Both the position numbers and the translations under genes were made by a program. Under the pieces are notes generated by a model that did no database searches, was not told the origin of the DNA, and saw only the letters and a program-made list of their open reading frames with translations. From NCBI GenBank assembly GCA_027858715.1, contig JAQICD010000075.1, positions 1-52,776 of the forward strand: a stretch of 52,776 bases of DNA, in the 5' to 3' direction. Shown here piece after piece: positions 21,908-50,239 of the stretch (position 1 is the stretch's first letter; each line of letters opens with the position of its first letter). The DNA is from Prolixibacteraceae bacterium. Lineage in GTDB: Bacteria > Bacteroidota > Bacteroidia > Bacteroidales > Prolixibacteraceae.

Positions 21908-24900
21908 TTATTGCTTTGCTTTAGGCAGATAAAAGCTAAAACATGAGCCTTTACCTACTTCCGATTTTAGAGTAATTTCTCCGCCCATTACACCTACTAG
22001 GTTTTTAACGATAGATAAGCCCAGACCGTTTCCTCCAAATTTACGTGTAGAGCTGCTTTCAACCTGTCTGAAACGGTCGAAAATGGCTTCCTTGTGTGTT
22101 TCTTCAATGCCTATTCCTGTATCTTCTACTTTAAAATAAATATAGTTATTATCGTACCCGGTAACACCAAATTCGATATAGCCTTCGGGTGTAAATTTAA
22201 GAGCATTATTAAGCAGGTTAACAAAAATTTGGTTTAACCTGTTTCTATCGGTTGTAATATCTAGTTGAACATCTAGCGTTAACACTCGTATATCAATATT
22301 GTGTGGCGATGTACTTGCAAGATCGGCATATTCGCGATATAAAGCACGAATAATATTATTGAGGCTGAAAGTTGACAGGTGGATGCTCAGTTGATTGGTT
22401 TCGAGACTTGAAATGTCGATTATGTCGTTGATGATTTGCAGCAGGCTTTCGGCACTTTTCTCAATAATTGATGAAAATTGCTTCCTGTCTTCAATTGAAA
22501 GTGTTTCAGTTTCTTTTAGCAAATCGGTGAATCCGAGAATTGAATTTAGCGGAGTACGAATTTCGTGACTCATATTAGCCAGGAAGGATGTTTTCAGTTT
22601 ATCGCTTTCTTCAGCTTTATTTTTAGCATCAACTAATTCTTCGATCAATTCTTTTTTATAGGTAATATCTTCTTCTACAGCAACATAATTGATTGTTTCG
22701 CCAAGCTGATTTTTAACCGGAGAGATAATTACATTTACCCAATAAAGTTCACCGTTTTTCTTTTTATTTTCAAGTTCACCCCGCCAGTCGTACCCGCGTT
22801 TTAACATACTCCACATTTCGTTGTAAAGTTCTTTAGTATGTGTACCCGATTTTAGAATATTTGGTTTATTCCCAACAACCTCTTCCATATTGAATCCGGT
22901 AGTAATAACAAAATTATGATTTACATATTCTATAACACCTTCAATGTTTGTTATAATAATATTAAGCGGTGTTTGTTCTATAGCAGTAGAAAGTTTGCTG
23001 CGTTCTTTTTCGGCTTCCATTTGGTTGGTTACATTATGTCCAAGGCCAACAAGACCGATTATTTCGCCGTGTTCATTTTTTAAAGGTATTTTCGATGTTT
23101 GTAACCATTCTTCCTTTCCTTTTTTGGTTACCACGTGTTCTTTTTGGTTAATAATTGATTTACCTTCTTTTATTACAAGCTGATCATCAGCCCAATATTT
23201 TTCAGCAAATTCTTTTGGAAACATTTCAAAGTCGGTCTTTCCTTTAATTTCATCAAATGATTCCGCACCACATACAAGTACATCATTATGGTTGGCAATA
23301 ATTTTACGCCCCTGGGCATCCTTCATATAAATGGTATCGGGTATATTTTCTATAATGGTATGAAGCAAGTTGTTGTTGTAGGTGAGGGTTTGTTCGGCCA
23401 ATATTCGTTTGGTTATATCGGTGACAGTGCCAATAAAACCTATCAGGTTTTGGTTGGCATCAAATTCAGGAGATACTTGTCCCTGTACCCATATAATTTT
23501 GTTATTTTCATGTAAAAACCGGTATTCAGTAGCGTAATTTTCTTTACTGTTAATAATTTTCAACCAGTTTTTATGTACAGTATCTCTATCGTCGGGGTGG
23601 ATCCTGTTTAGCCACTGCAAGCCCAGGGCTTCGCTTTCGGAGCATCCGGCCAGTTCGCACCATTTTGAGTTTACAAAAACAGTTTTTCCTTCAACATCGG
23701 TTTTAAAAATACCTACACTTGCATTGGTGGCTAAATTCTTAAATAAAACCCGGCTGTCTTCAAGTTCGTGTTCAATTTTTATTCTTTCGGTTATATCATT
23801 TATAAAACCTTCAAGAGCATACACTTTACCGTGGTCGTTATAAATGGCTCTGCCTTTTTCCCATACCCATTTTTTGTCACCGCTTTTTGTTTTGATTTCG
23901 TATTCCAGCTCAAAACTTTTATTGTTTTTTATAGCATCGTCAATAGTTTGATATACTTTTTCGCGGTACTGGGGTAATATCAATGAATTATAGCTTATTA
24001 TATTGTTGTTTATTAAATCTTTACTCCAATATCCGGTAAGTAACAAACAGCCATTACTTACAAATTTCATGGTCCATTTAGAATCGGGTTGGCAGCGATA
24101 AGCCATACCTGGTAAATTCGAAAGTAAAGTTTGCATTTGACGACGATGTTCATCAATTTTCTTTTCTTGTTCGTGCTCTAATGATTGATCTCTGAATACA
24201 ACAACTACGCCCGATAATTTTCCGTTGCTATCGAAAATAGGTGCACCGCTATCGGCTATTGGTCGTAAAATATTGTCTTTTGATATAAGTAAAGTGTGAT
24301 TGGCCAAGCCAACAACCACCCCATCTTCTATCACTTTTTTAAACGGACTTTCAATTTTTTCGCGTGTTTCTTCGTTTATAATTCTGAAAACATCTTCAAC
24401 TGGTTTGTTTATCGCATCGAGTTCATTCCAACCGGTAAGTCTTTCGGCAACAGAATTTAAATTCTTTACTTTTCCTTCGGTATCTGTAGTGATAACAGCA
24501 TCACCAATACTATAAAGTGTTGTTTTATACACTTCGTTTGCAAGAAATAATTTTTGATATAGTTTGCTTTGTGATGTTCGATAATAGTATGCGAAAACAA
24601 ATATTATGAGAAGAATAAAAAAGAGTAAAACAAGATAGAAGAATACGGCCTTGGCTTTAAGTGATGAAAATACTTCATCTTCGTCGATTTTTACCAATAC
24701 AAACCAGTCAGTATCTGCTACATCTTTTACATATGATATAACGTTGTTTCCATAATAGTCTTTCCCATAAACTATATTTTGTCCACCTGTTGTGCCCTGA
24801 ACAGAGACAAATTCATTATGACTTAAAGGCAGGCTAAATGAAAAATAATTGTTTTCGTTTTGAGAATAATTATTAATAAAAATGATGCTGTCTCCTGCTT

Positions 24901-25522
24901 TTTTAAACAAAAGCACTTCGCCACTAACTCCGGCTCCGGGCCAGTTAGTAAATGCAGGAAAAAATGTAGTTTCAGGATCTATTGAATATAAAAATGCACC
25001 AATAACTTGTTTGTTGGCATTGAGTATGGGAGCTGAGAAATCAATTGAAAAAAGTTGTTTCTGATCGTGGCTTTTTTGAAAACTCAGGGCTTGTTTCTGT
25101 TTTGAAGCGATCGTTGTGTTGATAATAGAGTCGATCGTTTGGCTTATGGTATAATTTTTCAGTGACCATACGATTTGAGAATTAGTATCAAACAAAACAA
25201 TGTTCGAGTAACTATGTTGTATTGCAAGATCTGATAAATGCTCAGAAAGATAGTTTTCATTCTCTGTGTTTTTGACTTTAAGGAATTGCGAAATACCTTG
25301 TATGAGTGTAGTACTCTGAGAAATATAATCCACATCATTCAGTTCATCGGAATACCATTCAAATAAGTTGTTTGCTTTAAGTTCGGCAATTGATTTTAAT
25401 TCATTTTCTATCCCTTCGGCAACATTCTTATATATGTTTTTGGTGTAAATTTTGCCGGCAATTATTGCCAATAATGTTAAAAAAATTATTGCTGAAATTA
25501 GAATGTTGCGAGTTCGTTTCAT
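21908..25522 (-). CDS. Membrane sensor histidine kinase with Cache-like and five PAS domains
   Basis: 1204-residue two-component kinase. TM1 is at residues 7-25 (ILISAIIFLTLLAIIAG). An extracytoplasmic domain of about 260 residues resembles dCache sensors. TM2 lies near 290-310 (FYLVLLFFILLIIFVFAY). Five PAS/PAC units then run from about 325 to 955, each ending in a PAC-like VVVFRD, GFINDITE, GFIGTVTDIT, GLVGLGHNVT or NYVAVEEDIT stretch. HisKA carries H986 in SHEIRTPLNS, and the HATPase has NQIFVNLLNNALKF, DTGIGIE and GNGLGLSIV. There is no receiver domain, so it needs a partner; none is adjacent. It is divergent from the ECF sigma operon at 25691. Confidence 0.93.
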   Translation of the reverse strand: MKRTRNILISAIIFLTLLAIIAGKIYTKNIYKNVAEGIENELKSIAELKANNLFEWYSDELNDVDYISQSTTLIQGISQFLKVKNTENENYLSEHLSDLAIQHSYSNIVLFDTNSQIVWSLKNYTISQTIDSIINTTIASKQKQALSFQKSHDQKQLFSIDFSAPILNANKQVIGAFLYSIDPETTFFPAFTNWPGAGVSGEVLLFKKAGDSIIFINNYSQNENNYFSFSLPLSHNEFVSVQGTTGGQNIVYGKDYYGNNVISYVKDVADTDWFVLVKIDEDEVFSSLKAKAVFFYLVLLFFILLIIFVFAYYYRTSQSKLYQKLFLANEVYKTTLYSIGDAVITTDTEGKVKNLNSVAERLTGWNELDAINKPVEDVFRIINEETREKIESPFKKVIEDGVVVGLANHTLLISKDNILRPIADSGAPIFDSNGKLSGVVVVFRDQSLEHEQEKKIDEHRRQMQTLLSNLPGMAYRCQPDSKWTMKFVSNGCLLLTGYWSKDLINNNIISYNSLILPQYREKVYQTIDDAIKNNKSFELEYEIKTKSGDKKWVWEKGRAIYNDHGKVYALEGFINDITERIKIEHELEDSRVLFKNLATNASVGIFKTDVEGKTVFVNSKWCELAGCSESEALGLQWLNRIHPDDRDTVHKNWLKIINSKENYATEYRFLHENNKIIWVQGQVSPEFDANQNLIGFIGTVTDITKRILAEQTLTYNNNLLHTIIENIPDTIYMKDAQGRKIIANHNDVLVCGAESFDEIKGKTDFEMFPKEFAEKYWADDQLVIKEGKSIINQKEHVVTKKGKEEWLQTSKIPLKNEHGEIIGLVGLGHNVTNQMEAEKERSKLSTAIEQTPLNIIITNIEGVIEYVNHNFVITTGFNMEEVVGNKPNILKSGTHTKELYNEMWSMLKRGYDWRGELENKKKNGELYWVNVIISPVKNQLGETINYVAVEEDITYKKELIEELVDAKNKAEESDKLKTSFLANMSHEIRTPLNSILGFTDLLKETETLSIEDRKQFSSIIEKSAESLLQIINDIIDISSLETNQLSIHLSTFSLNNIIRALYREYADLASTSPHNIDIRVLTLDVQLDITTDRNRLNQIFVNLLNNALKFTPEGYIEFGVTGYDNNYIYFKVEDTGIGIEETHKEAIFDRFRQVESSSTRKFGGNGLGLSIVKNLVGVMGGEITLKSEVGKGSCFSFYLPKAKQ

Positions 25523-25690: not shown

Positions 25691-26260
25691 ATGGATAAAA
25701 ACGAGCAACTTTTTAGTCAGTTTTTAAAGGGCAACAGGAAAAGCTTCGAAATTCTTTTCAAGCGCTTTTATGCTCAACTTTGTTACTATGCATATAAATA
25801 TGTGAACGATTTTGATGAGGCAGAAGATATAGTTCAGGGTTTTTTTGCAAAAATGTGGGATTCAAAATCATCGGTAAATATCAATACTTCAGTTAAAAAT
25901 TATTTTTTCCGTTCGGTACGCAACCTATGTTTAAATCAGATTAAACATTATAAAGTTGTTGACCAACATCGTAAAGAATCACTTCGGGATATGGTAACTT
26001 CTGAAAATGATAATGTTATATACGATTATGCATTGGTTAATCGTATCAATCAATGTATTGATGAATTACCACCTAAAAGACGAGAAATATTTGTTCTTAG
26101 CCGTGAGTATGATTTAAAATATCGGGAGATAGCCGAAAGACTAAATATTTCGGTTAAAACAGTTGAAACCCAAATGGGTTTAGCCCTTAAAGAACTTCGA
26201 GTTAAACTGGGCGATATAAAAAAAATGATTATCGGACTCATTCTGATATTGAAATCTTAA
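25691..26260 (+). CDS. ECF sigma factor (FecI-like, Bacteroidota expansion family)
   Basis: 189-residue extracytoplasmic-function sigma factor. Region 2 covers about residues 10-90 (FEILFKRFYAQLCYYAYKYV, DEAEDIVQGFFAKMWD, NYFFRSVRNLCLNQI). Region 4 covers 118-180 (INELPPKRREIF-like INQCIDELPPKRREIFVLS, then YREIAERLNISVKTVETQM with the helix-turn-helix). It heads an operon with the FecR gene 45 bases downstream. In the FecI/FecR model it is held inactive by FecR until an outer-membrane signal arrives. A possible promoter (TTTG 25636-25639, TATTTTG 25662-25668) has a spacing of 22 and is imperfect. Confidence 0.93.
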   Translation: MDKNEQLFSQFLKGNRKSFEILFKRFYAQLCYYAYKYVNDFDEAEDIVQGFFAKMWDSKSSVNINTSVKNYFFRSVRNLCLNQIKHYKVVDQHRKESLRDMVTSENDNVIYDYALVNRINQCIDELPPKRREIFVLSREYDLKYREIAERLNISVKTVETQMGLALKELRVKLGDIKKMIIGLILILKS

Positions 26261-26305: not shown

Positions 26306-27280
26306 GTGAAGCAGGAAAATTGGAATATTATAGCAGGCTACCTGTCGGGCGAAGATCTCGATGATGAGGAACTAAGGGTAATCGAACAATATAAAACGAA
26401 CCACAAAGAATGGGGAGAAACGGTTGACTTATTCAACAATTTATCTGATGTGGCAAAAATGCGTAGGTTCGATGCCCAAAAAGCATGGGATAAACTACAG
26501 GAAAAGCACAATTACAAAACAAGCACGCGCCGCTTGTCTGTATCTCATATAACTATGAAGTATGCAGCAGCGATAGCAGTATTGCTGGTTGTGCCAGTTC
26601 TGTTTTGGTACTTTTTAACTTCGCAAAATCAAATAACCTACACAACTGCAAATAACGATAACAGTCGCCCGGTTTATGTGCTTAGCGATGGTTCGAAAGT
26701 AACGCTCAACCATGGTTCGACCATTACTTATAGCAAGAAATTCAATAACGATAAACGAGAAATTCAACTTACTGGTGAGGCTTATTTCGATGTGTTACCT
26801 GATGCAGAACGTCCGTTTATGGTTGTTACCGATGCAGCCGAAGTAAATGTACTGGGAACCTCTTTTAACGTTAATGCATATCCCGGGGCAACAAATATAG
26901 AAGTTGCTGTAAGTAGCGGCGTAGTTGAGTTTAAGTCGAAAAACAATTCCGTAATTCAACTTAAACAAGGTGAAAAAGGAATATTTGAGCGTAAAACCAA
27001 TAAAATGGCTATACACAGTACCTTTAACAAAAACGATATAGCATGGGTTACCCGTCAGATTGAATTCAATGCAACAAACCTCGGCAAAATATTACCGGTA
27101 CTTGAAAAAGCTCATAATATCAATGTAAAAATTGAAGATGATGTTGATACAACTTTGCTGCTAACAGCCACTTTTAACCAACAAGATGCCGACTATATTT
27201 TTGATGTGATTGGTATAACACTAAACCTTGAAATTGAGCAAATTGAAGACGATGTTTATTTGATTAAGAATATAAAATAA
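26306..27280 (+). CDS. FecR-family anti-sigma factor
   Basis: 324-residue single-pass inner-membrane regulator. Residues 1-85 are cytoplasmic and should hold the sigma factor; TM at about 90-107 (AAAIAVLLVVPVLFWYFL); the periplasmic FecR domain (about 120-225) has the typical LSDGSKVTLNHGSTITY, GEAYFDVLPDAERPFMV and VNVLGTSFNVNAY; and a DUF4974-like C-terminal domain spans 250-322. The start is GTG at 26306 (KQENWNIIAGYLSGE), the only start giving a complete N-terminal domain. The DUF4974 domain is similar in fold to STN domains, which the next two proteins carry at their N-termini. Usually the partner is a TonB-dependent receptor; here none is present. Confidence 0.93.
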   Translation: MKQENWNIIAGYLSGEDLDDEELRVIEQYKTNHKEWGETVDLFNNLSDVAKMRRFDAQKAWDKLQEKHNYKTSTRRLSVSHITMKYAAAIAVLLVVPVLFWYFLTSQNQITYTTANNDNSRPVYVLSDGSKVTLNHGSTITYSKKFNNDKREIQLTGEAYFDVLPDAERPFMVVTDAAEVNVLGTSFNVNAYPGATNIEVAVSSGVVEFKSKNNSVIQLKQGEKGIFERKTNKMAIHSTFNKNDIAWVTRQIEFNATNLGKILPVLEKAHNINVKIEDDVDTTLLLTATFNQQDADYIFDVIGITLNLEIEQIEDDVYLIKNIK

Positions 27281-27292
27281 TGAGGGGGAAGG

Positions 27293-28837
27293 ATGATGAA
27301 AAAAACATTATTTATTACAACTTTAAAAGCACTGTTAATCTTTGCGTTGTTGCCGGGTGCAGTAGCACAGCAACCATCAAACGTGCTCGATCAAAACATT
27401 TCACTTTATGTTGAAAACGAACCACTTGAATCGGTAATCGAAAAAATATGCGAACAGTTTAACCTCGATTACGACTACAATTCGAAACTGATAAAAGGCA
27501 AGCGGATTAATCTAAGCATTTCGAATAAATCGGTGCGCGAAGTGTTGGACAAACTGATGGAAGATTATTTTCTAATTTTTGAAATAGAAAACAACCTTTT
27601 GGTTGTACGCGATTATGTGCCAATGTCGAAGAGTATTGATTTTAAAGAGATGTACAGCAAATCAAATACCGGTTTTTTGTTCGATAACACAAAAACAAAA
27701 ACAAAAATTATTGATTTTAAACTGATCAGCAACCTGATAATCATACCGATTAGTATTAACAATTCCGATACCATGAATTTTATTCTCGATACCGGGGTAA
27801 AGGAACCAATTATTACAGAACTAACCCTTGTTGAAGAACTTGACCTTAATTATTTGCATCCTGTAAAAATAAATGGACTTGGAAGCGAAAACGATATACA
27901 GGCATACCAATCTGGAGACAACACCATTACCCTGCCCGGACTTACAGCACGTCATGTTAAACTAAATGTAATACTCGACGAGTCGTTTCAGATATCACAA
28001 ATATTGGGAATGCCTGTTCATGGCTTAGTCGGGTTTGACCTTTTTAGGCATTACATTGTTGAAATTGATTACCAGCGTGAAAAAATTGAACTTACTAAAC
28101 CACAGTTTTTCAAATATAAACCACGGCGAAACGATATTGTGCTACCCATAAAAATGGTACGCAACAAACCTATAATACAGTCCGAAATAGTACAGGACAA
28201 CGGCGAGATAGTACCTGTGAAGTTACTGGTTGATACAGGTGCAAGCGATGCCCTTTGGCTTATAACCGAAACCGATTCGTCGATTGTGTTGCCCGAAAAA
28301 AATCTATTTACCTATCTTGGTGCAGGTTTGGGAGGCGATTTGTACGGACACAAAGGCAGGCTAAGTTCTTTGTGGCTCGGTGGTAAACCCATTTCGAGCC
28401 CCATTGCATCGTATCCGCAATCTCATTTTATTAACCAGATAATCAAATCGGAAAAACGAAACGGAACGCTTGGCGGCGAAATTTTGCGCAGATTTACAGT
28501 TACCATCGATTACTATAACAACCGCCTCATTCTCGACCCGAACAGCAACTTTAAAAACAAGTTCAATTACAATATGAGCGGGCTCGAAGTTATTAACCCT
28601 GTACCGGGTGTACCTGTTTTTACCGTAAGCAATGTAATTGAAGAATCGCCTGCATGGGAAGCAGGTGTTAGGGAAAATGACCAGATACTAAGGATTAATT
28701 TTATGAATCATAATAGCTTGACACTAAACGATATTAACCTGGAATTGAGGCAAAAGGATAACAAAAAAATCAGGCTGACCCTTTTGCGAAACGGTGAAGA
28801 GTTTAAAACCGAATTCAGGCTGAAAGAAATAATATGA
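27293..28837 (+). CDS. STN domain - retropepsin-like aspartyl protease - PDZ protein
   Basis: 514-residue exported protein. Signal peptide about 1-25 (cleavage after GAVA). Residues about 36-106 look like an STN (secretin/TonB short N-terminal) domain: ISLYVENEPLESVIEKICEQ, then INLSISNKSVREVLDKLM. Two retropepsin-type lobes follow, each with an active-site triplet: D166-T-G in FILDTG and D314-T-G in LLVDTG. A PDZ domain ends the protein (about 428-512, VSNVIEESPAWEAGVRENDQ). It is probably a periplasmic or surface peptidase. It lies 12 bases after FecR and its stop overlaps the next start (ATGA). STN is normally the signalling part of TonB-dependent transducers; joining it to a protease is unusual. 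Proteolytic targets are unknown. Confidence 0.82.
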   Translation: MMKKTLFITTLKALLIFALLPGAVAQQPSNVLDQNISLYVENEPLESVIEKICEQFNLDYDYNSKLIKGKRINLSISNKSVREVLDKLMEDYFLIFEIENNLLVVRDYVPMSKSIDFKEMYSKSNTGFLFDNTKTKTKIIDFKLISNLIIIPISINNSDTMNFILDTGVKEPIITELTLVEELDLNYLHPVKINGLGSENDIQAYQSGDNTITLPGLTARHVKLNVILDESFQISQILGMPVHGLVGFDLFRHYIVEIDYQREKIELTKPQFFKYKPRRNDIVLPIKMVRNKPIIQSEIVQDNGEIVPVKLLVDTGASDALWLITETDSSIVLPEKNLFTYLGAGLGGDLYGHKGRLSSLWLGGKPISSPIASYPQSHFINQIIKSEKRNGTLGGEILRRFTVTIDYYNNRLILDPNSNFKNKFNYNMSGLEVINPVPGVPVFTVSNVIEESPAWEAGVRENDQILRINFMNHNSLTLNDINLELRQKDNKKIRLTLLRNGEEFKTEFRLKEII

Positions 28838-30354
28838 GAAAACATTTCATTTCAATTTTCTTCGTTTTATGTTTCACGGCATCGGGTTCGTATGCCGGCG
28901 AAGAAATTTTAATGCATTATGTTTCTATAAAAGCCGATTCTATTACCAAAGCCGATTTACTCGACACCTTAAGTGCAAGGTATAATATTCATTTTTCATA
29001 CAATCCGGAACTACTGAAAGCAAACAAAAGGGTAAGCATCAACATTGAAAATATGCCACTCTATTATGTGCTAAACGGATTAATACCCGATGAAATTATG
29101 GCCATCCGATCGGTAAATACCCAGGTAATTTTTTATCCTACACAAAAACAACCACCTGAAAGTAAAACGAACAAATACATAACGATAAGTGGAAAAATTG
29201 TAGAAGAAGAAAGGGAATTACCGGTACCTTACTGCAACATAACCATTGTTGGAAAAGCTTTGGGTACAATGTCTAATAACAACGGACGATTTTCGGTTCT
29301 TATTCCCGATAGCCTGGTTAACGATACGCTGGCCTTCTCGTGCATGGGTTACCAAATTGAATATTTGCCCATGGCGCAAGCCCAATTAGCGACGGTAACT
29401 GTTTATTTGAAACCACGCACTTATAATCTGAAAACCATCGATATTGTAAGGTACGAGCCTGAAAAAATATTTGCTGGGTTTGATAAAAATTTTGACGATA
29501 ATTACGAATCAGAATATACCCTGTTTTCGGCTTTTTACCGCGAGCTAACAACCGAAAACGATAAATATACAAATATATCGGAAGCCGTTCTGAAAATTAT
29601 GAAAGCTCCGTATAAATCTGATTTTCGCGACGATTTGGTGAAATTTATAAAAGGCAGAAAGGGTACCGGAATATCTCCCGTGAGCGATATCAGGTTCACC
29701 CTAATGGGTGGCCCGTACTACATAACAAAGCTTGATGTGGTTAAAAACAACGAAAGTTTTATGAAAGCAGAAAACCGTCATCTTTACAATTATAAATACG
29801 AAAGTACAATGCTGGTTAATAATCGCAAAACTGCCGTTGTGAGTTTTTCACCTGTTTACAGTTTGCGCGACATACTTTTTGAGGGTACACTTTATTTTGA
29901 TGTTGAAACCTGGGGTATTTCAAGGGTTGAGTTTAATTACACCCGGCAAGGTTTGCGCGAAGCACGTCACACCTTAATCCAGAAAAAGCCGCAACACGTT
30001 AGAGTGATACCCGAAAAACTTGAATATGTTGTTCAATATAAATATCTGGACGGAAAATGGTATCTTCAATCCGCTAGAAGTTTTTTTGATATTCAGATTA
30101 ACAACCGTGAAACCCGTGAAAAAACGAAGTTTAAAAGTACTTCAGAAATATTGACAACTGGCATTGAAAAAGGAAATTATGAAAAAATTTCGCGACATGA
30201 AATATTTAGACGACACGAAATATTTACCGATAAAATTTCGACATACGACCCTTCGTTTTGGGATAAATATAATGTAGTTGAACCCGAAGAAGATCTTACA
30301 AATGCATTGAAAAATTTCAACGAACAAAACCTTGTGGTTACATATACCTATTAA
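28834..30354 (+). CDS. STN and carboxypeptidase-regulatory-like domain protein
   Basis: 506-residue exported protein. Signal peptide about 1-21 (ASGSYA). A probable STN domain spans about 28-102 (ITKADLLDTLSARYNIHFSYNPELL, then VSINIENMPLYYVLNGL). A CarboxypepD_reg-like beta-sandwich spans about 116-195 (ITISGKIVEEERELPVPYCNITIVG, NGRFSVLIP). The C-terminal 300 residues, from ESEYTLFSAFYREL onward, resemble a region found in Bacteroidota regulatory-domain proteins of unknown function. There is no plug or barrel, although STN + regulatory domain is how a SusC-type transducer begins. Its start overlaps the previous stop by 4 bases, so it is translationally coupled. Confidence 0.8.
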   Translation: MRKHFISIFFVLCFTASGSYAGEEILMHYVSIKADSITKADLLDTLSARYNIHFSYNPELLKANKRVSINIENMPLYYVLNGLIPDEIMAIRSVNTQVIFYPTQKQPPESKTNKYITISGKIVEEERELPVPYCNITIVGKALGTMSNNNGRFSVLIPDSLVNDTLAFSCMGYQIEYLPMAQAQLATVTVYLKPRTYNLKTIDIVRYEPEKIFAGFDKNFDDNYESEYTLFSAFYRELTTENDKYTNISEAVLKIMKAPYKSDFRDDLVKFIKGRKGTGISPVSDIRFTLMGGPYYITKLDVVKNNESFMKAENRHLYNYKYESTMLVNNRKTAVVSFSPVYSLRDILFEGTLYFDVETWGISRVEFNYTRQGLREARHTLIQKKPQHVRVIPEKLEYVVQYKYLDGKWYLQSARSFFDIQINNRETREKTKFKSTSEILTTGIEKGNYEKISRHEIFRRHEIFTDKISTYDPSFWDKYNVVEPEEDLTNALKNFNEQNLVVTYTY

Positions 30355-30373
30355 AAAAATAAAATTTCAACGA

Positions 30374-32899
30374 ATGAAAGCAATAATACCCGTACTTATA
30401 TTAATCCTGTTAAGCTACATAAAACCTGCCGCTCAAACTCCTGTTGATTCGATGTTTGCCCGACTCGAAAATTATAAACATGAGCATCAACATATTAAAA
30501 CACTTTTACTAACTGATAAAGATATTTATGCACCAGGAGAAAAAATATGGTACAAAATATCATTGCACAATATCTTAACTGAATCATTAGCCGATAATCA
30601 AGTGCTTATTGTTATGCTTAAAACCGACCAGGGTGAAGTTGTAATTGACCAAAAACTGGTAACCGGTTCTGATAACAATTCTCAAGGCAGTCTTACCATT
30701 CCATCATGGACACCTGAAGGGAATGCCTATTTGTTAGCTTACACATCCGAGGCATTAAGCATGAACGGATCAGCCTTATCGGCACTAAAACCTATTTTTA
30801 TAAACCGGCTCGAACGAAACGATTTTGTTATTGGAGCCCAGCTCAGTAAAAAACTACATAAGCCGGGTGAAAAAGTAAACCTTTCGGTAAATGTTAAACC
30901 CGTAACAAACTCATCGCGCAAGGAACGTATTTCTATTACTTTGTTCGATGGCAATAAGGAAATATTCACCGACAAACAACGGGTTGAAACAGAACAGAAC
31001 ACCGTTTTCACATATCAAATTCCTAACGAAATCAACCGTGGGCTTTACTTTGTTGTTGAAACAATTGGACGTGGAAGTTTTTCAACCAAAGTACGTGTGC
31101 CAACAACTGCCGATAAAATAAGCATGCATTTTTATCCCGAAGGCAGCAATATTATATCAAATCTCCAACAGCGAATTGTTTACCGCGCCTTCGATACTTA
31201 CGGATTACCGGTTGAAGTTGAAGGCAGCATTTACGACCAAACCGGACACCAAACCGGGCTGGCTAAACTGCTGAAAAACAACATGGGGCTTATCAGTCTT
31301 ATGCCTTCAGCTCAAAATACCTATCATCTTAAAATTGAATCGGCATACGGAAAAGGACAGCAAATAACATTGCCCCGGCCTCAAATTAACACCAGTGCTA
31401 TTCATCTTGTAAAATCTGATGAAGAACACATTCGTATTGATGTGTTGTCAAACGGTAGCATCATTGAAAACGAATTAATATTAATGGCGGTTCAACGAGG
31501 AACAGTGGTATTGGATAACAGTTTTATTGCCGATTCAAAAAACAGTTTCCAGCTTGCGGCTCAATCGCTGCCCCGCGGCATTATCAGTTTTCTGGTGTAT
31601 TCACCTGAAAATGGAATAATATCTGAACGATTGATTTATAACGGATTATCAGTTCCGGCAGATAATATCGACATAACTGTTTCGAATGGCACTCCATTAG
31701 CGATCAGTGAATTCGACCTTACCGTAAAAATTGATACCACTAATTTACCTGGCGAAGAGTATTACGTTGATATAAAAGTAGTTGATAAACAAAATATAAT
31801 TGACAAAGCACAAAAAAAGGATTTTGATTTTCTGAAATTTCCGTTGTTCGATTACCCTCCCCAAAATGTGCTTACACAATATGTTACTAACATTGAACTT
31901 ATTGGAAACGAGTTCCCGTATTTTTCATACCAAAAAATATTTAATGGAATTGAAAAAGCAAAAAGTAGCGAAAAAGGAATTGGGGGTACTGTACTTAACA
32001 AAGAAGGAGAACCGGTACCTAATGCCAATGTGATACTGAAGCATCCGCAGTATCCGTCGCCTTATACGGTGCAAACCGATTCAAGCGGCCGCTTTACTTT
32101 CGGGGGTGTTTCACGCTCAGACGAAATGGTAATAAAAGCAGTGACCGACAACGGGAAAAAAGAGCATTCGATAGTTTTTGAACCGGGATTTAACGAAGCC
32201 ATTGAAGATATATATCTGAAAAAACTTTTTCAGCGGAGTGTGTTGTATCATCCCGATACTTATGAGTATAACGAACAAAACAAAGGATTACTGGCAAGCA
32301 TTGGAACCGAAACCAAAAATAAACGACCGACACAACCATCGCCGGCAGAAAGGATGTTGAAGTCGGGTTCATCAATTCTCGAAGTTATAAAAATGATGAA
32401 GCCTTTTGATATTGTGAATAACCAGATTGTGTTTTTCGGGTCACAAAACTCGCTTAATTTTCAGCAAGGCGCTTTAATTGTAATCGACGGACAAAAAGCC
32501 GGTACCGGCATAGATGTGCTGAGTCAACTATCGCCAGCCAATGTTTCATCTATAAATATAAGCACCAGCCCCATCGACATACAGCGTTACACCGGGTTAA
32601 ATAGTGTGGGCATTATCGAAATAAATACATTTGGAGCTAAAAGTATTGACAAAACAGATAAAGAAACGGAGAATACAGCTTCTACATTCAGCTATGATAA
32701 CTTCACCAGCGAAACATGGCCGTATCAAACCACCCTTTTGTGGATGCCTAATGCAATATTTGGAGAAAATGGAGTACTTAAAACAACTGTAAGAACCAGT
32801 AAAATTGAATCGGAATTTGTAATTGATGTAACGTTGACAACCGAAACCGGCATTCGGTTTAAGAAGCAACTTTCAATAAAAGTGGGTGAGCTGAATTAG
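30374..32899 (+). CDS. Macroglobulin-like protein with TonB-receptor plug domain but no barrel
   Basis: 841-residue exported protein. The frame is open from 30332, but the ATG at 30374 starts a proper signal peptide (MKAIIPVLILILLSYIKPAAQ), so that start is chosen. Residues about 40-130 resemble an MG2 alpha-2-macroglobulin domain (LLLTDKDIYAPGEKIWYKI, GSLTIPSWTPEGNAYLLAYT). More beta-sandwich domains follow. A CarboxypepD_reg-like domain lies about 535-620 and a TonB-receptor plug-like domain about 663-755 (GALIVIDGQKAG, LSQLSPANVSSINI, GIIEINTFG). About 85 residues follow, far too few for a 22-strand barrel. It closes the sigma/FecR operon, 19 bases after the previous gene. Homologues without barrels exist in Bacteroidota, but their role is not established to my knowledge. 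Confidence 0.78.
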   Translation: MKAIIPVLILILLSYIKPAAQTPVDSMFARLENYKHEHQHIKTLLLTDKDIYAPGEKIWYKISLHNILTESLADNQVLIVMLKTDQGEVVIDQKLVTGSDNNSQGSLTIPSWTPEGNAYLLAYTSEALSMNGSALSALKPIFINRLERNDFVIGAQLSKKLHKPGEKVNLSVNVKPVTNSSRKERISITLFDGNKEIFTDKQRVETEQNTVFTYQIPNEINRGLYFVVETIGRGSFSTKVRVPTTADKISMHFYPEGSNIISNLQQRIVYRAFDTYGLPVEVEGSIYDQTGHQTGLAKLLKNNMGLISLMPSAQNTYHLKIESAYGKGQQITLPRPQINTSAIHLVKSDEEHIRIDVLSNGSIIENELILMAVQRGTVVLDNSFIADSKNSFQLAAQSLPRGIISFLVYSPENGIISERLIYNGLSVPADNIDITVSNGTPLAISEFDLTVKIDTTNLPGEEYYVDIKVVDKQNIIDKAQKKDFDFLKFPLFDYPPQNVLTQYVTNIELIGNEFPYFSYQKIFNGIEKAKSSEKGIGGTVLNKEGEPVPNANVILKHPQYPSPYTVQTDSSGRFTFGGVSRSDEMVIKAVTDNGKKEHSIVFEPGFNEAIEDIYLKKLFQRSVLYHPDTYEYNEQNKGLLASIGTETKNKRPTQPSPAERMLKSGSSILEVIKMMKPFDIVNNQIVFFGSQNSLNFQQGALIVIDGQKAGTGIDVLSQLSPANVSSINISTSPIDIQRYTGLNSVGIIEINTFGAKSIDKTDKETENTASTFSYDNFTSETWPYQTTLLWMPNAIFGENGVLKTTVRTSKIESEFVIDVTLTTETGIRFKKQLSIKVGELN

Positions 32900-47032: not shown

Positions 47033-50000
47033 ATGAAGTTTAAACAAAAAGTCGGAACCTGTTTCCGAATGAATCTATTCAGAATCATAACCGGTTTATT
47101 ATCCGGAATGATGTTTTTGTTTTTTACTTCGATCTCGCTTACTGCTTTAAGTGCAGAACAGCAAGTTGAAGTAAAAGGTAAAGTTGTGTCGGCAAGCGAT
47201 CAGGTACCTGTTATTGGTGCTACGGTTGTAGTTAAAGGAACAACAAACGGAACAACAACAAACATTGATGGCGAATTCTTTATTAATGCTTCAATGAGTG
47301 ATGTTTTAAATGTTACATTTATTGGCTATAAAAGTGTTGAGGTTGATGTTACAGAAAATGATCTTCTTATCGAACTTGAAGAAGATATAACCGACCTGGA
47401 AGAAGTTGTAGTTATTGGTTATGGTGTTCAGAAAAAGAAACTGAGCACGGGTGCCACAACACAGGTAAAGGGCGACAATGTTCAGAAAATGAGTACGACG
47501 AACCCTTTGCAGGCGATGCAAGGACAAGCTCCCGGTATCAGTATTTCTTCTACATCGGGACAGCCCGGGGCCGATATGAAAGTAACCATCAGGGGACTTG
47601 GTACCGTTGGTAATTCGGATCCGTTATACATTATCGATGGCGTTGAAGGCGATATCACAAACCTCAATGCTTCGGATATCGAATCGATTGATATTTTGAA
47701 AGATGCTGCATCGGCAGCTATTTATGGTTCGCAGGCAGCAAATGGTGTTGTTCTGGTTACCACCAAAAAGGGTAGCAAAGGAAATGCACATGTAACTTTC
47801 GATGGTTATTACGGCTTACAAATTGTTGGCCGTACTACTGATATGCTTAACGCGAATGAATATCAGGTAATCATGAACGAGCAAGCACTCAACTCGGGTG
47901 CTTCAATGTTTCCCGATTCGCTTTTTAGCAACGGGGCCGATACCGATTGGGTAAAGCAAATGTTTTATGATAACGCTGTTACTCAAAATTACTCGCTTAG
48001 TGTGTCCGGTGGAAGTGAAACATCGGTTTACGCTATGTCGTTAAACTATACCGGTCAGGAAGGAATAGTTGGCGGTCCTGATGTTTCGAATTATGAGCGC
48101 TATGGGTTTCGTTTAAATTCAGAACACAAGCTTTACGATGGTAAACTTACTGTTGGGCAAAGTTTGAACTTCACATACAAAATGAATACCGGTATTTCTG
48201 TGGGAAACCAATATAACAATACTATGCGTGGTGCATTTGTAACTTCGCCAATAGCACCGGTTTTCAGCGATAATAATATTTACGATGTGCCTTACAACGA
48301 CACTTCAAATTCCGATTGGTACAAAGGCGATGGTAATCCCTACGGCCAAATGATAATTAATACAAAGAATAAAAATAATGCTCAGAATTTGCTGGCTAAT
48401 TTTTATGCCGAATTAGAGCCGATTAAAAACTTGCGTGTTAAATCTTTAGTCGGGTTAAATTATTATTCCTCCGATTATCGTAGCTACTCTCCTTTGTATC
48501 AATTGTCGATGTATGCTTTTAACAACGATCATACTTCTGTAAATCAGAGTATGAGTAAGGGGCAAACAATAACCTGGACAAATACGGCAAGTTACGACTT
48601 CAACATCAACGAAGATCACCAATTTAACGTGTTAGGTGGTATGGAAGCCATCGCTTATGACGGGGTTGGACTTTCAGCTTCAAACTGGAATATTTTAAGC
48701 CAGTTTAACGATTTTGCACATGCCTACCTTGATAATACAACCGGACAAGCCAAACTTGATAAAGATGACAATGGCGAAGTAAACGGAGTTATCGAAACAA
48801 AAGGTGTAGGCGGTGGGCCGGCTATCAAACAAAGACGTCTTTCATATTTTGGTCGTTTAGCTTATAACTACCAGGAAAAATACATGTTTAATGCCACTTT
48901 ACGTGCCGATGCTTCTTCAAAATTTGCTGCAGGTTACCGCTGGGGATACTTCCCGTCAGCATCATTCGGATGGGTTATGACGAACGAAGACTTTATGGAA
49001 AACAATGCTGACTGGCTTACTTTCCTAAAGATGCGTTTAAGCTGGGGACGTGTGGGTAACCAGAACATCGACGATTTCCAGTATGCAGCACCAATTAATA
49101 CTTCAACAAGTTATTCATCTGATGATCCGGCTGCAAACTATGTTTTCGGAACTTCGCTGGTTAACACGCCGGGTGCTTACCCAAGCCGTTTGTCGAACGA
49201 AGAGTTGCGCTGGGAAACTTCTGAGCAAAGCAACGTGGGTATCGATGCTTATTTGTTTGACGGCCATATGGGGGTTAACGGAGATTTCTACATTAAAACA
49301 ACCAAAGACTGGTTGGTACGTGCGCCTATCCTTGCAACAGCCGGTGCCGGTGCGCCATATATCAATGGTGGTGATGTGAAAAATACCGGAATTGAACTCG
49401 CCCTGAGCTGGAACGACGAAATTGGCGATGTTTCATATACCGTTGGCGTGAATGGTGCCTATAATAAAAACGAAGTGGGAAATATTCCAACCGAAGATGG
49501 CATTATTCACGGTTTAACTAATATGCTGTACGATAATTCCGAAGAGTTTTACCGTGCCGAAAACGGGCATCCAATCGGTTATTTCTGGGGATACGAAACC
49601 GATGGTATCTTCCAGAATGAAAACGAGATTGCTGCTTGGAAAGAAGCCGGTAAAGGAGTATTGCAAGCCGATGTTAAGCCCGGCGATGTACGTTATGTCG
49701 ATCAGGATAACAATGGTGTTATCAATGCCGAAGACAAAATTGACTTAGGTTGCGGAATACCCGATTTTACTTATGGTTTTAATGTTTCACTTGCCTACAG
49801 GGGATTCGATTTCTCGGTAAATGCCAACGGAGTTTATGGCAACGAAATTGTACAATCCTACCGTAACCACGCAAACAAACAGGCCAATTATACTAGTGAA
49901 ATACTTAACCGCTGGACGGGTGAAGGTACCTCGAATACAATTCCAAGAGTTACCGAAACAAATGTTAACTGGCAATTTTCTGATTTATACCTAAATGATG

Positions 50001-50239
50001 GCAGTTATTTGCGCATCAACAACATTACACTGGGATACGACTTTAAAGAACTTGTTAACTGGAAATACCTGAGCCAGTGTCGGGTTTATGCTAGTGTTCA
50101 GAATGCATTTACATTCACTACTTACAACGGAATGGATCCCGAAATTGGATATGGTACCAGCGGATGGGTTTCAGGTATTGATCTGGGATATTATCCTCGT
50201 CCACAAACATACATGTTGGGTGTAAACATTAAATTTTAA
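47033..50239 (+). CDS. susC: SusC-like TonB-dependent outer-membrane transporter
   Basis: 1068-residue outer-membrane transporter that imports oligosaccharides with SusD, powered by TonB. Signal peptide (about 1-41), carboxypeptidase-regulatory-like domain (47-125, VKGKVVSASDQVPVIGATVVVKG), TonB-box region, plug (about 135-245, LQAMQGQAPGISISSTSGQPGAD and IESIDILKDAASAAIYGSQAANGVVLVTTKKG), and a barrel of about 800 residues ending with MLGVNIKF. The terminal phenylalanine fits outer-membrane assembly. No N-terminal STN domain is present, so it is a plain importer rather than a sigma-linked transducer. It is followed by the SusD gene 2 to 20 bases later. Confidence 0.96.
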   Translation: MKFKQKVGTCFRMNLFRIITGLLSGMMFLFFTSISLTALSAEQQVEVKGKVVSASDQVPVIGATVVVKGTTNGTTTNIDGEFFINASMSDVLNVTFIGYKSVEVDVTENDLLIELEEDITDLEEVVVIGYGVQKKKLSTGATTQVKGDNVQKMSTTNPLQAMQGQAPGISISSTSGQPGADMKVTIRGLGTVGNSDPLYIIDGVEGDITNLNASDIESIDILKDAASAAIYGSQAANGVVLVTTKKGSKGNAHVTFDGYYGLQIVGRTTDMLNANEYQVIMNEQALNSGASMFPDSLFSNGADTDWVKQMFYDNAVTQNYSLSVSGGSETSVYAMSLNYTGQEGIVGGPDVSNYERYGFRLNSEHKLYDGKLTVGQSLNFTYKMNTGISVGNQYNNTMRGAFVTSPIAPVFSDNNIYDVPYNDTSNSDWYKGDGNPYGQMIINTKNKNNAQNLLANFYAELEPIKNLRVKSLVGLNYYSSDYRSYSPLYQLSMYAFNNDHTSVNQSMSKGQTITWTNTASYDFNINEDHQFNVLGGMEAIAYDGVGLSASNWNILSQFNDFAHAYLDNTTGQAKLDKDDNGEVNGVIETKGVGGGPAIKQRRLSYFGRLAYNYQEKYMFNATLRADASSKFAAGYRWGYFPSASFGWVMTNEDFMENNADWLTFLKMRLSWGRVGNQNIDDFQYAAPINTSTSYSSDDPAANYVFGTSLVNTPGAYPSRLSNEELRWETSEQSNVGIDAYLFDGHMGVNGDFYIKTTKDWLVRAPILATAGAGAPYINGGDVKNTGIELALSWNDEIGDVSYTVGVNGAYNKNEVGNIPTEDGIIHGLTNMLYDNSEEFYRAENGHPIGYFWGYETDGIFQNENEIAAWKEAGKGVLQADVKPGDVRYVDQDNNGVINAEDKIDLGCGIPDFTYGFNVSLAYRGFDFSVNANGVYGNEIVQSYRNHANKQANYTSEILNRWTGEGTSNTIPRVTETNVNWQFSDLYLNDGSYLRINNITLGYDFKELVNWKYLSQCRVYASVQNAFTFTTYNGMDPEIGYGTSGWVSGIDLGYYPRPQTYMLGVNIKF

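Follow-up and report, generated by a model that had tools for sequence, protein, structure and literature searches.

A predicted STN-aspartic protease-PDZ protein in a sigma-FecR operon of the Prolixibacteraceae, a tentative candidate for a site-1 protease

We analysed a stretch of 52,776 nucleotides from a Prolixibacteraceae bacterium (hereafter the window), in which five genes follow one another on one strand: those of an ECF sigma factor, a FecR-type anti-sigma factor, the STN-protease-PDZ protein that is our subject, an STN-CarboxypepD protein (hereafter the partner) and an MG2/A2M-bait/CarboxypepD protein (Table 1). The protease gene begins 12 bases after FecR, and its stop overlaps the start of the partner gene by 4 bases; the start given for the MG2 gene in the list of open reading frames is a TTG inside the preceding gene. 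The sequence of FecR has a hydrophobic stretch near residues 82-104, and its Gly-Thr at 184-185 would correspond to the point where FoxR-type anti-sigma factors cleave themselves. Another part of the genome encodes RseP (257.5 bits, cut-off 147.55). In Pfam, no plug and no barrel was matched by any of the five operon proteins at E <= 1. A SusC-like protein (47033-50239) lies outside the operon, and at E <= 0.001 no STN was matched in it. An ORF of 1204 aa on the minus strand (21908-25522), divergently oriented to the sigma gene, looks, when read by eye, like a PAS-rich histidine kinase; a relative of it adjoins the sigma gene in loci L111, L163 and L164.

Table 1. Positions of the operon genes and of the protein features discussed in the text, with the two fused proteases found outside such an operon.
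Feature	Position	Strand	Basis or remark
ECF sigma factor, Bacteroidota FecI-like	25691..26260	+	TIGR02985 167.1 bits, cut-off 126.4; Sigma70_r2, r4_2
FecR-type membrane anti-sigma factor	26306..27280	+	PF04773 64 bits, PF16344 32.2 bits, both above cut-off
FecR Gly-Thr, residues 184-185	26855..26860	+	G184 T185 S186 F187 invariant in 19/19 aligned FecR
STN - putative two-lobe aspartic protease - PDZ protein	27293..28837	+	514 aa
Signal peptide, about residues 1-26	27293..27370	+	Read from sequence; model helix 3-18
STN-type domain, residues 34-107	27392..27613	+	Pfam, hhalign, model pattern
Protease lobe 1, residues 134-270	27692..28102	+	Asp_protease_2; model; VIA match
Putative catalytic triplet D166-T-G	27788..27796	+	Asp invariance
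Protease lobe 2, residues 280-418	28130..28546	+	Second Asp_protease_2 stretch; model; VIA match
Putative catalytic triplet D314-T-G	28232..28240	+	Asp invariance
PDZ domain, residues 428-512	28574..28828	+	Pfam, three PDZ models
Partner: STN, SusC-type NTE (CarboxypepD), probably LolA/LolB-like C-terminus	28834..30354	+	Pfam, AlphaFold2, VIA
MG2 / A2M bait-region / CarboxypepD protein, facultative operon member	30332..32899	+	Pfam
Orphan fused proteases	L130:7941-9506 (G896) and L162:4078-5637 (G932)		Neighbours lost

A preliminary description of this DNA had read the protein as an STN domain followed by a two-lobe protease and a C-terminal PDZ domain, an architecture now borne out by Pfam, profile-profile comparison and an AlphaFold model. 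In Pfam, Asp_protease_2 matched two stretches of the protein (50.9 bits, cut-off 24.3) and gag-asp_proteas also matched (30.8 bits, cut-off 28.2), while RVP stayed under its cut-off (16 bits, cut-off 20.7); three PDZ models, PDZ_6, PDZ_2 and PDZ (PF17820, PF13180 and PF00595, with 32.6, 28.7 and 26.3 bits), all exceeded theirs. The N-terminal domain scored 27 bits against FecR_C (cut-off 24.4) and 21.2 bits against STN PF07660, under the cut-off of 28.4. The name STN is a fair one despite this score, because profile-profile comparison places the domain with the partner's STN (hhalign, 98.8% against 83.9% for FecR's C-terminus). In its sequence the domain thus resembles a receptor-type STN, nearer to that of the partner than to FecR's own C-terminus. 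A profile of the fused STN also matched nine fragments that, by their ORF, were taken as transducer STN domains.

The AlphaFold2 model (alignment of 37 sequences, mean pLDDT 86.2) has an STN-like order of strands and helices at residues 35-107, followed by a pair of beta lobes (about 134-418) and a PDZ domain (about 431-510); the structure prediction proposed earlier as a check for two lobes therefore gave two. In a VIA comparison restricted to residues 132-418 of this predicted model, both lobes matched 9iy9 (Z 21.3, 3.2 A, 268 residues) as well as renin and penicillopepsin (Z about 18, about 250 residues), and Foldseek agreed on the pepsin-like match. On the strength of these matches we describe the protein as pepsin-like, with two lobes on one chain and retropepsin-type units in its sequence. 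The lobes are predicted to pack as in pepsin, and the two Asp-Thr/Ser-Gly motifs in homologous lobes assign the protein, by sequence, to the putative two-lobe aspartic proteases of clan AA (pepsin/retropepsin-like). The nearest solved two-lobe fold, 9iy9, is a putative endopeptidase of Bacteroides fragilis; it differs in having only 19% identity over the aligned residues, and the match covers the lobes (chain residues 143-437). Sequence searches of the PDB gave no match at E <= 10 with the lobes alone and no chain at E <= 0.001 with a related Bacteroidales protease, and a search with the alignment profile returned chiefly PDZ proteins among the best 60 matches listed.

Both triplets, D166-T-G and D314-T-G, are intact, as had been stated. 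Their aspartates are invariant in 51/51 fused sequences (the window included, as well as G954, which is broken by an internal stop) and in 77/77 unfused relatives, far beyond what chance would give. In the fused set the lobe 1 triplet reads DTG 47 times, DSG three times and DTD once, and the lobe 2 triplet reads DTG 47 times and DLG four times. The four proteins with DLG (L124, L158, L159 and L160) are divergent g463 members on one branch, 37-38% identical to the window protein. The middle residue is more variable in the unfused set, with DLG in 7, DIG in 6 and DNG in 1 of 78 rows (the 77 relatives plus P0001 as reference). Mean conservation is 0.754 for the STN against 0.766 and 0.729 for the lobes. 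Pfam matches, spread through the family and invariant aspartates together rule out a chance ORF or a chance motif.

A search for the STN-protease architecture across Bacteroidota, which the preliminary description had suggested, found it in the window's family; elsewhere the sequences read from the samples were unfused. The fused protease was matched in 107 of the family's 140 genomes and in 18 of its 23 genera. Nearly all of these matches (102/107, G954 among them) form a single continuous alignment that starts at residue 29 or before and reaches at least residue 512, and the other five are fragments (G956, G856, G934, G844 and G970). There is a single fused protease per genome, since two rows for one genome stood for the pieces of a split gene or, in the case of G848, for an additional copy that is unfused. 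In wider samples, P0001 was matched at E <= 0.001 by 102 of 296 genomes in a sample of the phylum, some of them through the STN or the PDZ alone, at 1e-10 by 66 of 295 in a sample of the order (four of them in the window's family, the window included) and at 1e-20 by 37 of 295 in a sample of the class (window included). The strong protease matches listed outside the family have their first aligned residue at 69 or beyond, in most cases around 120-140, and none of the matches listed or fetched from these samples of 296, 295 and 295 genomes carries an STN fusion outside the family. The idea of a fusion spread across the phylum was accordingly rejected.

Profile searches drew the same line. All 51 fused sequences matched both the fused-STN and the partner-STN profile, whereas none of the 77 unfused relatives, drawn from the three samples and a scan of genome contigs, matched the partner-STN or FecR_C profile at E <= 0.01; a single one, L082_0, matched the fused-STN profile, and that marginally (E 0.0097). 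The scan of genome contigs with one sequence contributed one unfused relative. The long leaders of two unfused proteins, L038 and L065, come from calling the ORF at the first start after a stop and show no STN profile match, and L083, one of 78 sequences that the script did not count as full-length, is a fused protein that a stop interrupts. These STN-less Bacteroidota aspartyl protease-PDZ proteins are direct relatives of the fused protease and have the same two aspartates, at 24-37% identity in the alignment and up to 42% locally, but they lack the STN and, in 20/20 loci, a FecR nearby. Eight more distant loci yielded eight two-lobe proteases, none of which matched the STN profiles at E <= 0.01. 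Three two-lobe proteases (L214:4556-5824, L218:2753-4321 and L216:3333-4781) have other, non-STN N-terminal parts of at least 140 residues. The two-lobe unit seems to have been combined with several front domains in the phylum.

Apart from the window itself, 33 fused loci were read (L111-L130, L158-L170). In 31 of these, as in the window, sigma and FecR lie directly upstream of the protease and an STN partner directly downstream; the place after FecR to which the preliminary description had drawn attention is thus a recurrent one. Where the contig extends far enough downstream to tell (28 operons), the MG2 gene comes next in 17 and does not in 11; in three further operons the contig ends too soon to show it. 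Around unfused proteases, no FecR-profile match was found in any of 20 loci (L131-L150; 19 genomes, 10 to 19 kb each), and weak sigma matches (29% and 24% identity) occur near two of them, L144 and L147. The 31/33 against 0/20 linkage to FecR, taken with the transducer-type STN, supports by sequence comparison the view that the protease acts on or with FecR. The two exceptions among the fused loci, L130 and L162, belong to the draft genomes G896 and G932, where the protease has no adjacent sigma, FecR or partner and no partner match occurs anywhere in the assembly. G896 has DTD in lobe 1 and an altered lobe 2 motif, which suggested that the active site decays once the operon is lost; G932, with its STN and both DTG triplets intact, contradicts this.

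The operon also exists without the protease. Seven of seven loci of the window's family in g449 (three) and g455 (four) have sigma, FecR and the STN partner and lack the protease (in L156, FecR is split over two ORFs). Outside the family we read 14 STN-partner loci, 13 with sigma and FecR directly upstream and none with the protease. In these 13 loci from other families of the order (L183-L188, L190-L193, L198-L200) a compact operon of sigma, FecR and the partner (STN, NTE and a probable LolA-like domain) recurs, and in 7 of the 13 an STN-less copy of the partner stands upstream of sigma. FecR systems of this type evidently do not need the protease, because the 7 sister operons and the 13 in other families lack it. 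By genome, 4 of 107 with the protease have no partner match at E <= 1e-30 (G856, G896, G932 and G970, of which G856 and G970 show protease fragments only), and 25 of 128 with a partner match have no protease; the partner search also counts the STN-less copy, and some g455 genomes have nothing else to match. The preliminary description had raised the idea that FecR is cleaved by the protease. As a link between the two this extends beyond one operon; an exclusive FecR protease is spoken against by the operons that do without it, by the two orphans and by the distance comparison below.

The same description had named the neighbouring plug protein as another possible substrate, which is inexact: the next gene encodes STN-CarboxypepD with a probably LolA-like C-terminus, and a Pfam search of the MG2 protein gave no Plug at E <= 1. 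The partner is not a plug. Cleavage of a plug protein is also weakly placed, given that the MG2 gene is a facultative member of the operon. In the AlphaFold2 model of the partner (pLDDT 81.1), which has an STN, the NTE region resembles that of SusC (VIA, 9hfj, Z 13.5), and the C-terminal region matched 3bk5 (Z 9.1), 4z48 (Z 8.9), ApoB 9bd8 (Z 8.9), LolA3 of P. gingivalis (9tp6, Z 8.9) and LolB 9tpm (Z 7.7). Matches of LolA/LolB type range from Z 6.8 to 9.1 and those of lipovitellin/ApoB type from 7.2 to 8.9, against a background of 7-8; they stand little above that background, yet are consistent with one another in pointing to LolA/LolB-type and other lipid-binding structures. The C-terminal domain, as modelled, is probably LolA-like. 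A MucB_RseB match was weak (E 0.13, in 1 of 19 members), and the best 50 VIA matches listed for the partner contain no RseB entry. The partner looks like the front end of a SusC protein (STN and NTE) moved onto a lipid-carrier fold, for which a LolA-like one is probable.

In a tree of STN domains, which has few columns and many unresolved forks and in which the G896 protease is present as two copies, the STN domains of the fused proteases form a single branch (96/86), and the fused STN is, as judged from this tree, of one origin. The simplest account of the sequences would be that the receptor-type STN was acquired a single time, by an exported protease-PDZ protein that came into a sigma-FecR-STN operon already in place, and that in g449 and g455 the protease was lost again or was never present. 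We also compared distances over 28 loci and the window. The protease STN appears slow-evolving, with a mean distance of 0.72 against 1.27 for FecR_C and 1.82 for the partner's STN. Partial correlation with FecR_C was 0.22 for the protease STN, against 0.30 each for lobe 1 and the partner's STN, and it reached 0.41 in the LolA-like region of the partner, so that this comparison gave no specific excess of coevolution between the protease STN and FecR_C. Together with the protease-less operons and the two orphans, it speaks against an exclusive, tightly coevolving protease-FecR pair.

With FecR/FoxR-type cell-surface signalling the operon shares a FecI-like sigma factor, a FecR with FecR_C and a receptor-type STN, and its genome has an RseP. 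The textbook system has a barrel transducer, whereas here STN domains are carried by a protease and by a probably LolA-like protein; because the operon has no barrel transducer, it is not a complete system of that kind. In DegS/RseB-RseA-sigma E regulation, RseB has a LolA-like fold, and the likeness, should our reading hold, would be that of a protease with PDZ alongside a periplasmic protein of LolA-like fold. The differences are a serine protease and RseA there, and an aspartic protease, STN tethers and FecR here. The partner's likeness to RseB rests on the one weak Pfam match and on fold matches that do not exceed a Z of about 9. DegS models match the PDZ part of the protease only, and its Pfam protease domains are aspartic only; the protein has no trypsin-like serine domain and is not DegS, even if it would work like DegS on our reading. 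The retropepsin-like bacterial proteases PerP of Caulobacter, SpoIIGA, whose substrate is pro-sigma E, APRc of Rickettsia and Rlo of Pseudomonas (for Rlo, PMC12239564) are aspartic enzymes, as the window protein is predicted to be, and we know of no STN-FecR arrangement in any of them. Several of the four are exported. SpoIIGA, listed as an aspartyl endopeptidase in PMC7593790, is alike also in acting in sigma control.

Two papers bear on how the parts might work together. In PMC11637429 (2024), the site-1 protease of FoxR is given as still unidentified, the authors suggest that signalling domains may interact with proteases, and the signalling domain of a transducer is reported to bind the STN-like C-terminus of FoxR. 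DegS, in PMC7593790, is a site-1 protease that senses through its PDZ and starts a cascade, and RseB shields the anti-sigma factor. Our favoured reading, which we consider quite possible if somewhat short of probable, is that the window protein is an aspartic site-1 protease that docks through its STN and cuts FecR, while the probably LolA-like partner serves as guard or sensor. An exported pepsin-like protease would be brought to the periplasmic face of FecR by its own STN, which would stand in for the TonB-dependent transducer of textbook cell-surface signalling. In the resting cell, FecR's STN-like C-terminal domain would be occupied by the partner's STN. Given a cue, which might be a peptide or the end of a protein on the PDZ domain or else a lipid or lipoprotein on the LolA-like domain, the protease STN would engage FecR and the protease would make the first periplasmic (site-1) cut; RseP would cut next in the membrane, freeing the sigma factor to transcribe the operon. 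Docking on FecR, proteolytic activity, FecR as the substrate, the cue and a division of labour like that of DegS and RseB are what we infer. We favour an STN-docked site-1 protease because the operon carries candidates for both the DegS role and the RseB role, each joined to an STN domain. The conserved operon, the single origin and receptor-type kinship of the fused STN, the two invariant aspartates, the predicted pepsin-like fold, the RseP of the genome and the invariant Gly-Thr-Ser-Phe of FecR count in its favour as well.

Other readings account for parts of the evidence. The protease might be a product of the regulon whose task is to process something else in the envelope, whether lipoproteins, misfolded proteins, the MG2 protein or the STN partner, its STN merely localising it. 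A regulated effector would show the same operon position, the sister operons manage without the protease, and because the unfused protease-PDZ relatives have no FecR nearby in any of the loci read, the ancestral job was probably not FecR. We nevertheless think such an output enzyme rather unlikely, since it leaves unexplained why a single gain of the STN came together with a seat in the FecR operon and why the STN is conserved on a par with the protease lobes; the MG2 gene, moreover, is facultative. As an obligatory substrate the MG2/bait protein was rejected on its occurrence in the operons. Alternatively, one STN-protease per genome might serve many FecR or other STN partners, the operon being its site of regulation only. 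That the protease is single beside 8 to 29 FecR genes in four operon-bearing genomes (8 in G000, 19 in G950, 24 in G907 and 29 in G838) fits this, as do its slow-evolving STN next to a faster FecR_C and the orphan in G932, which keeps its STN and active-site motifs after loss of the operon and still has 8 FecR genes. A free hub would hardly need to sit in exactly this operon in 31 of 33 loci, however, and G930 has 19 FecR-profile matches and no protease match, while the orphan in G896 has a single FecR; on balance we regard a hub as unlikely.

The cleft and PDZ domain could also simply bind peptides, the signal passing through the STN to FecR as from a TonB-dependent transducer and catalysis being secondary. 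An STN protein does occupy the gene place expected of the transducer in an operon devoid of plug and barrel matches, and altered triplets exist, DLG in four proteins and DTD in one. Against this stand the invariance of both aspartates in every fused sequence and the occurrence of middle-residue changes in the unfused set too, and a pure receptor appears very unlikely to us.

If the protein is indeed an STN-docked site-1 protease, it might represent a new class of such enzymes, an aspartic one seated in a FecR operon, addressed by a receptor-type STN and paired with an STN-LolA-like guard, which would combine a DegS/RseB-like logic with parts of the TonB transducer and no TonB receptor; we put this forward as a possible but doubtful proposition. 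The parts are each known. As far as we searched the open-licence literature, we found no description of a FecR operon in which an aspartic protease carries a receptor-type STN.

What sets off the proteolysis of FecR-type anti-sigma factors is an open question, as PMC11637429 indicates for FoxR, and the fused STN-protease makes it directly testable. In evolution a signalling-type domain has been joined to a protease, and in most genera of one family the fusion has stayed in the FecR operon. This is a FecR operon without a gene for a TonB receptor, in which the partner may sense lipids or lipoproteins.
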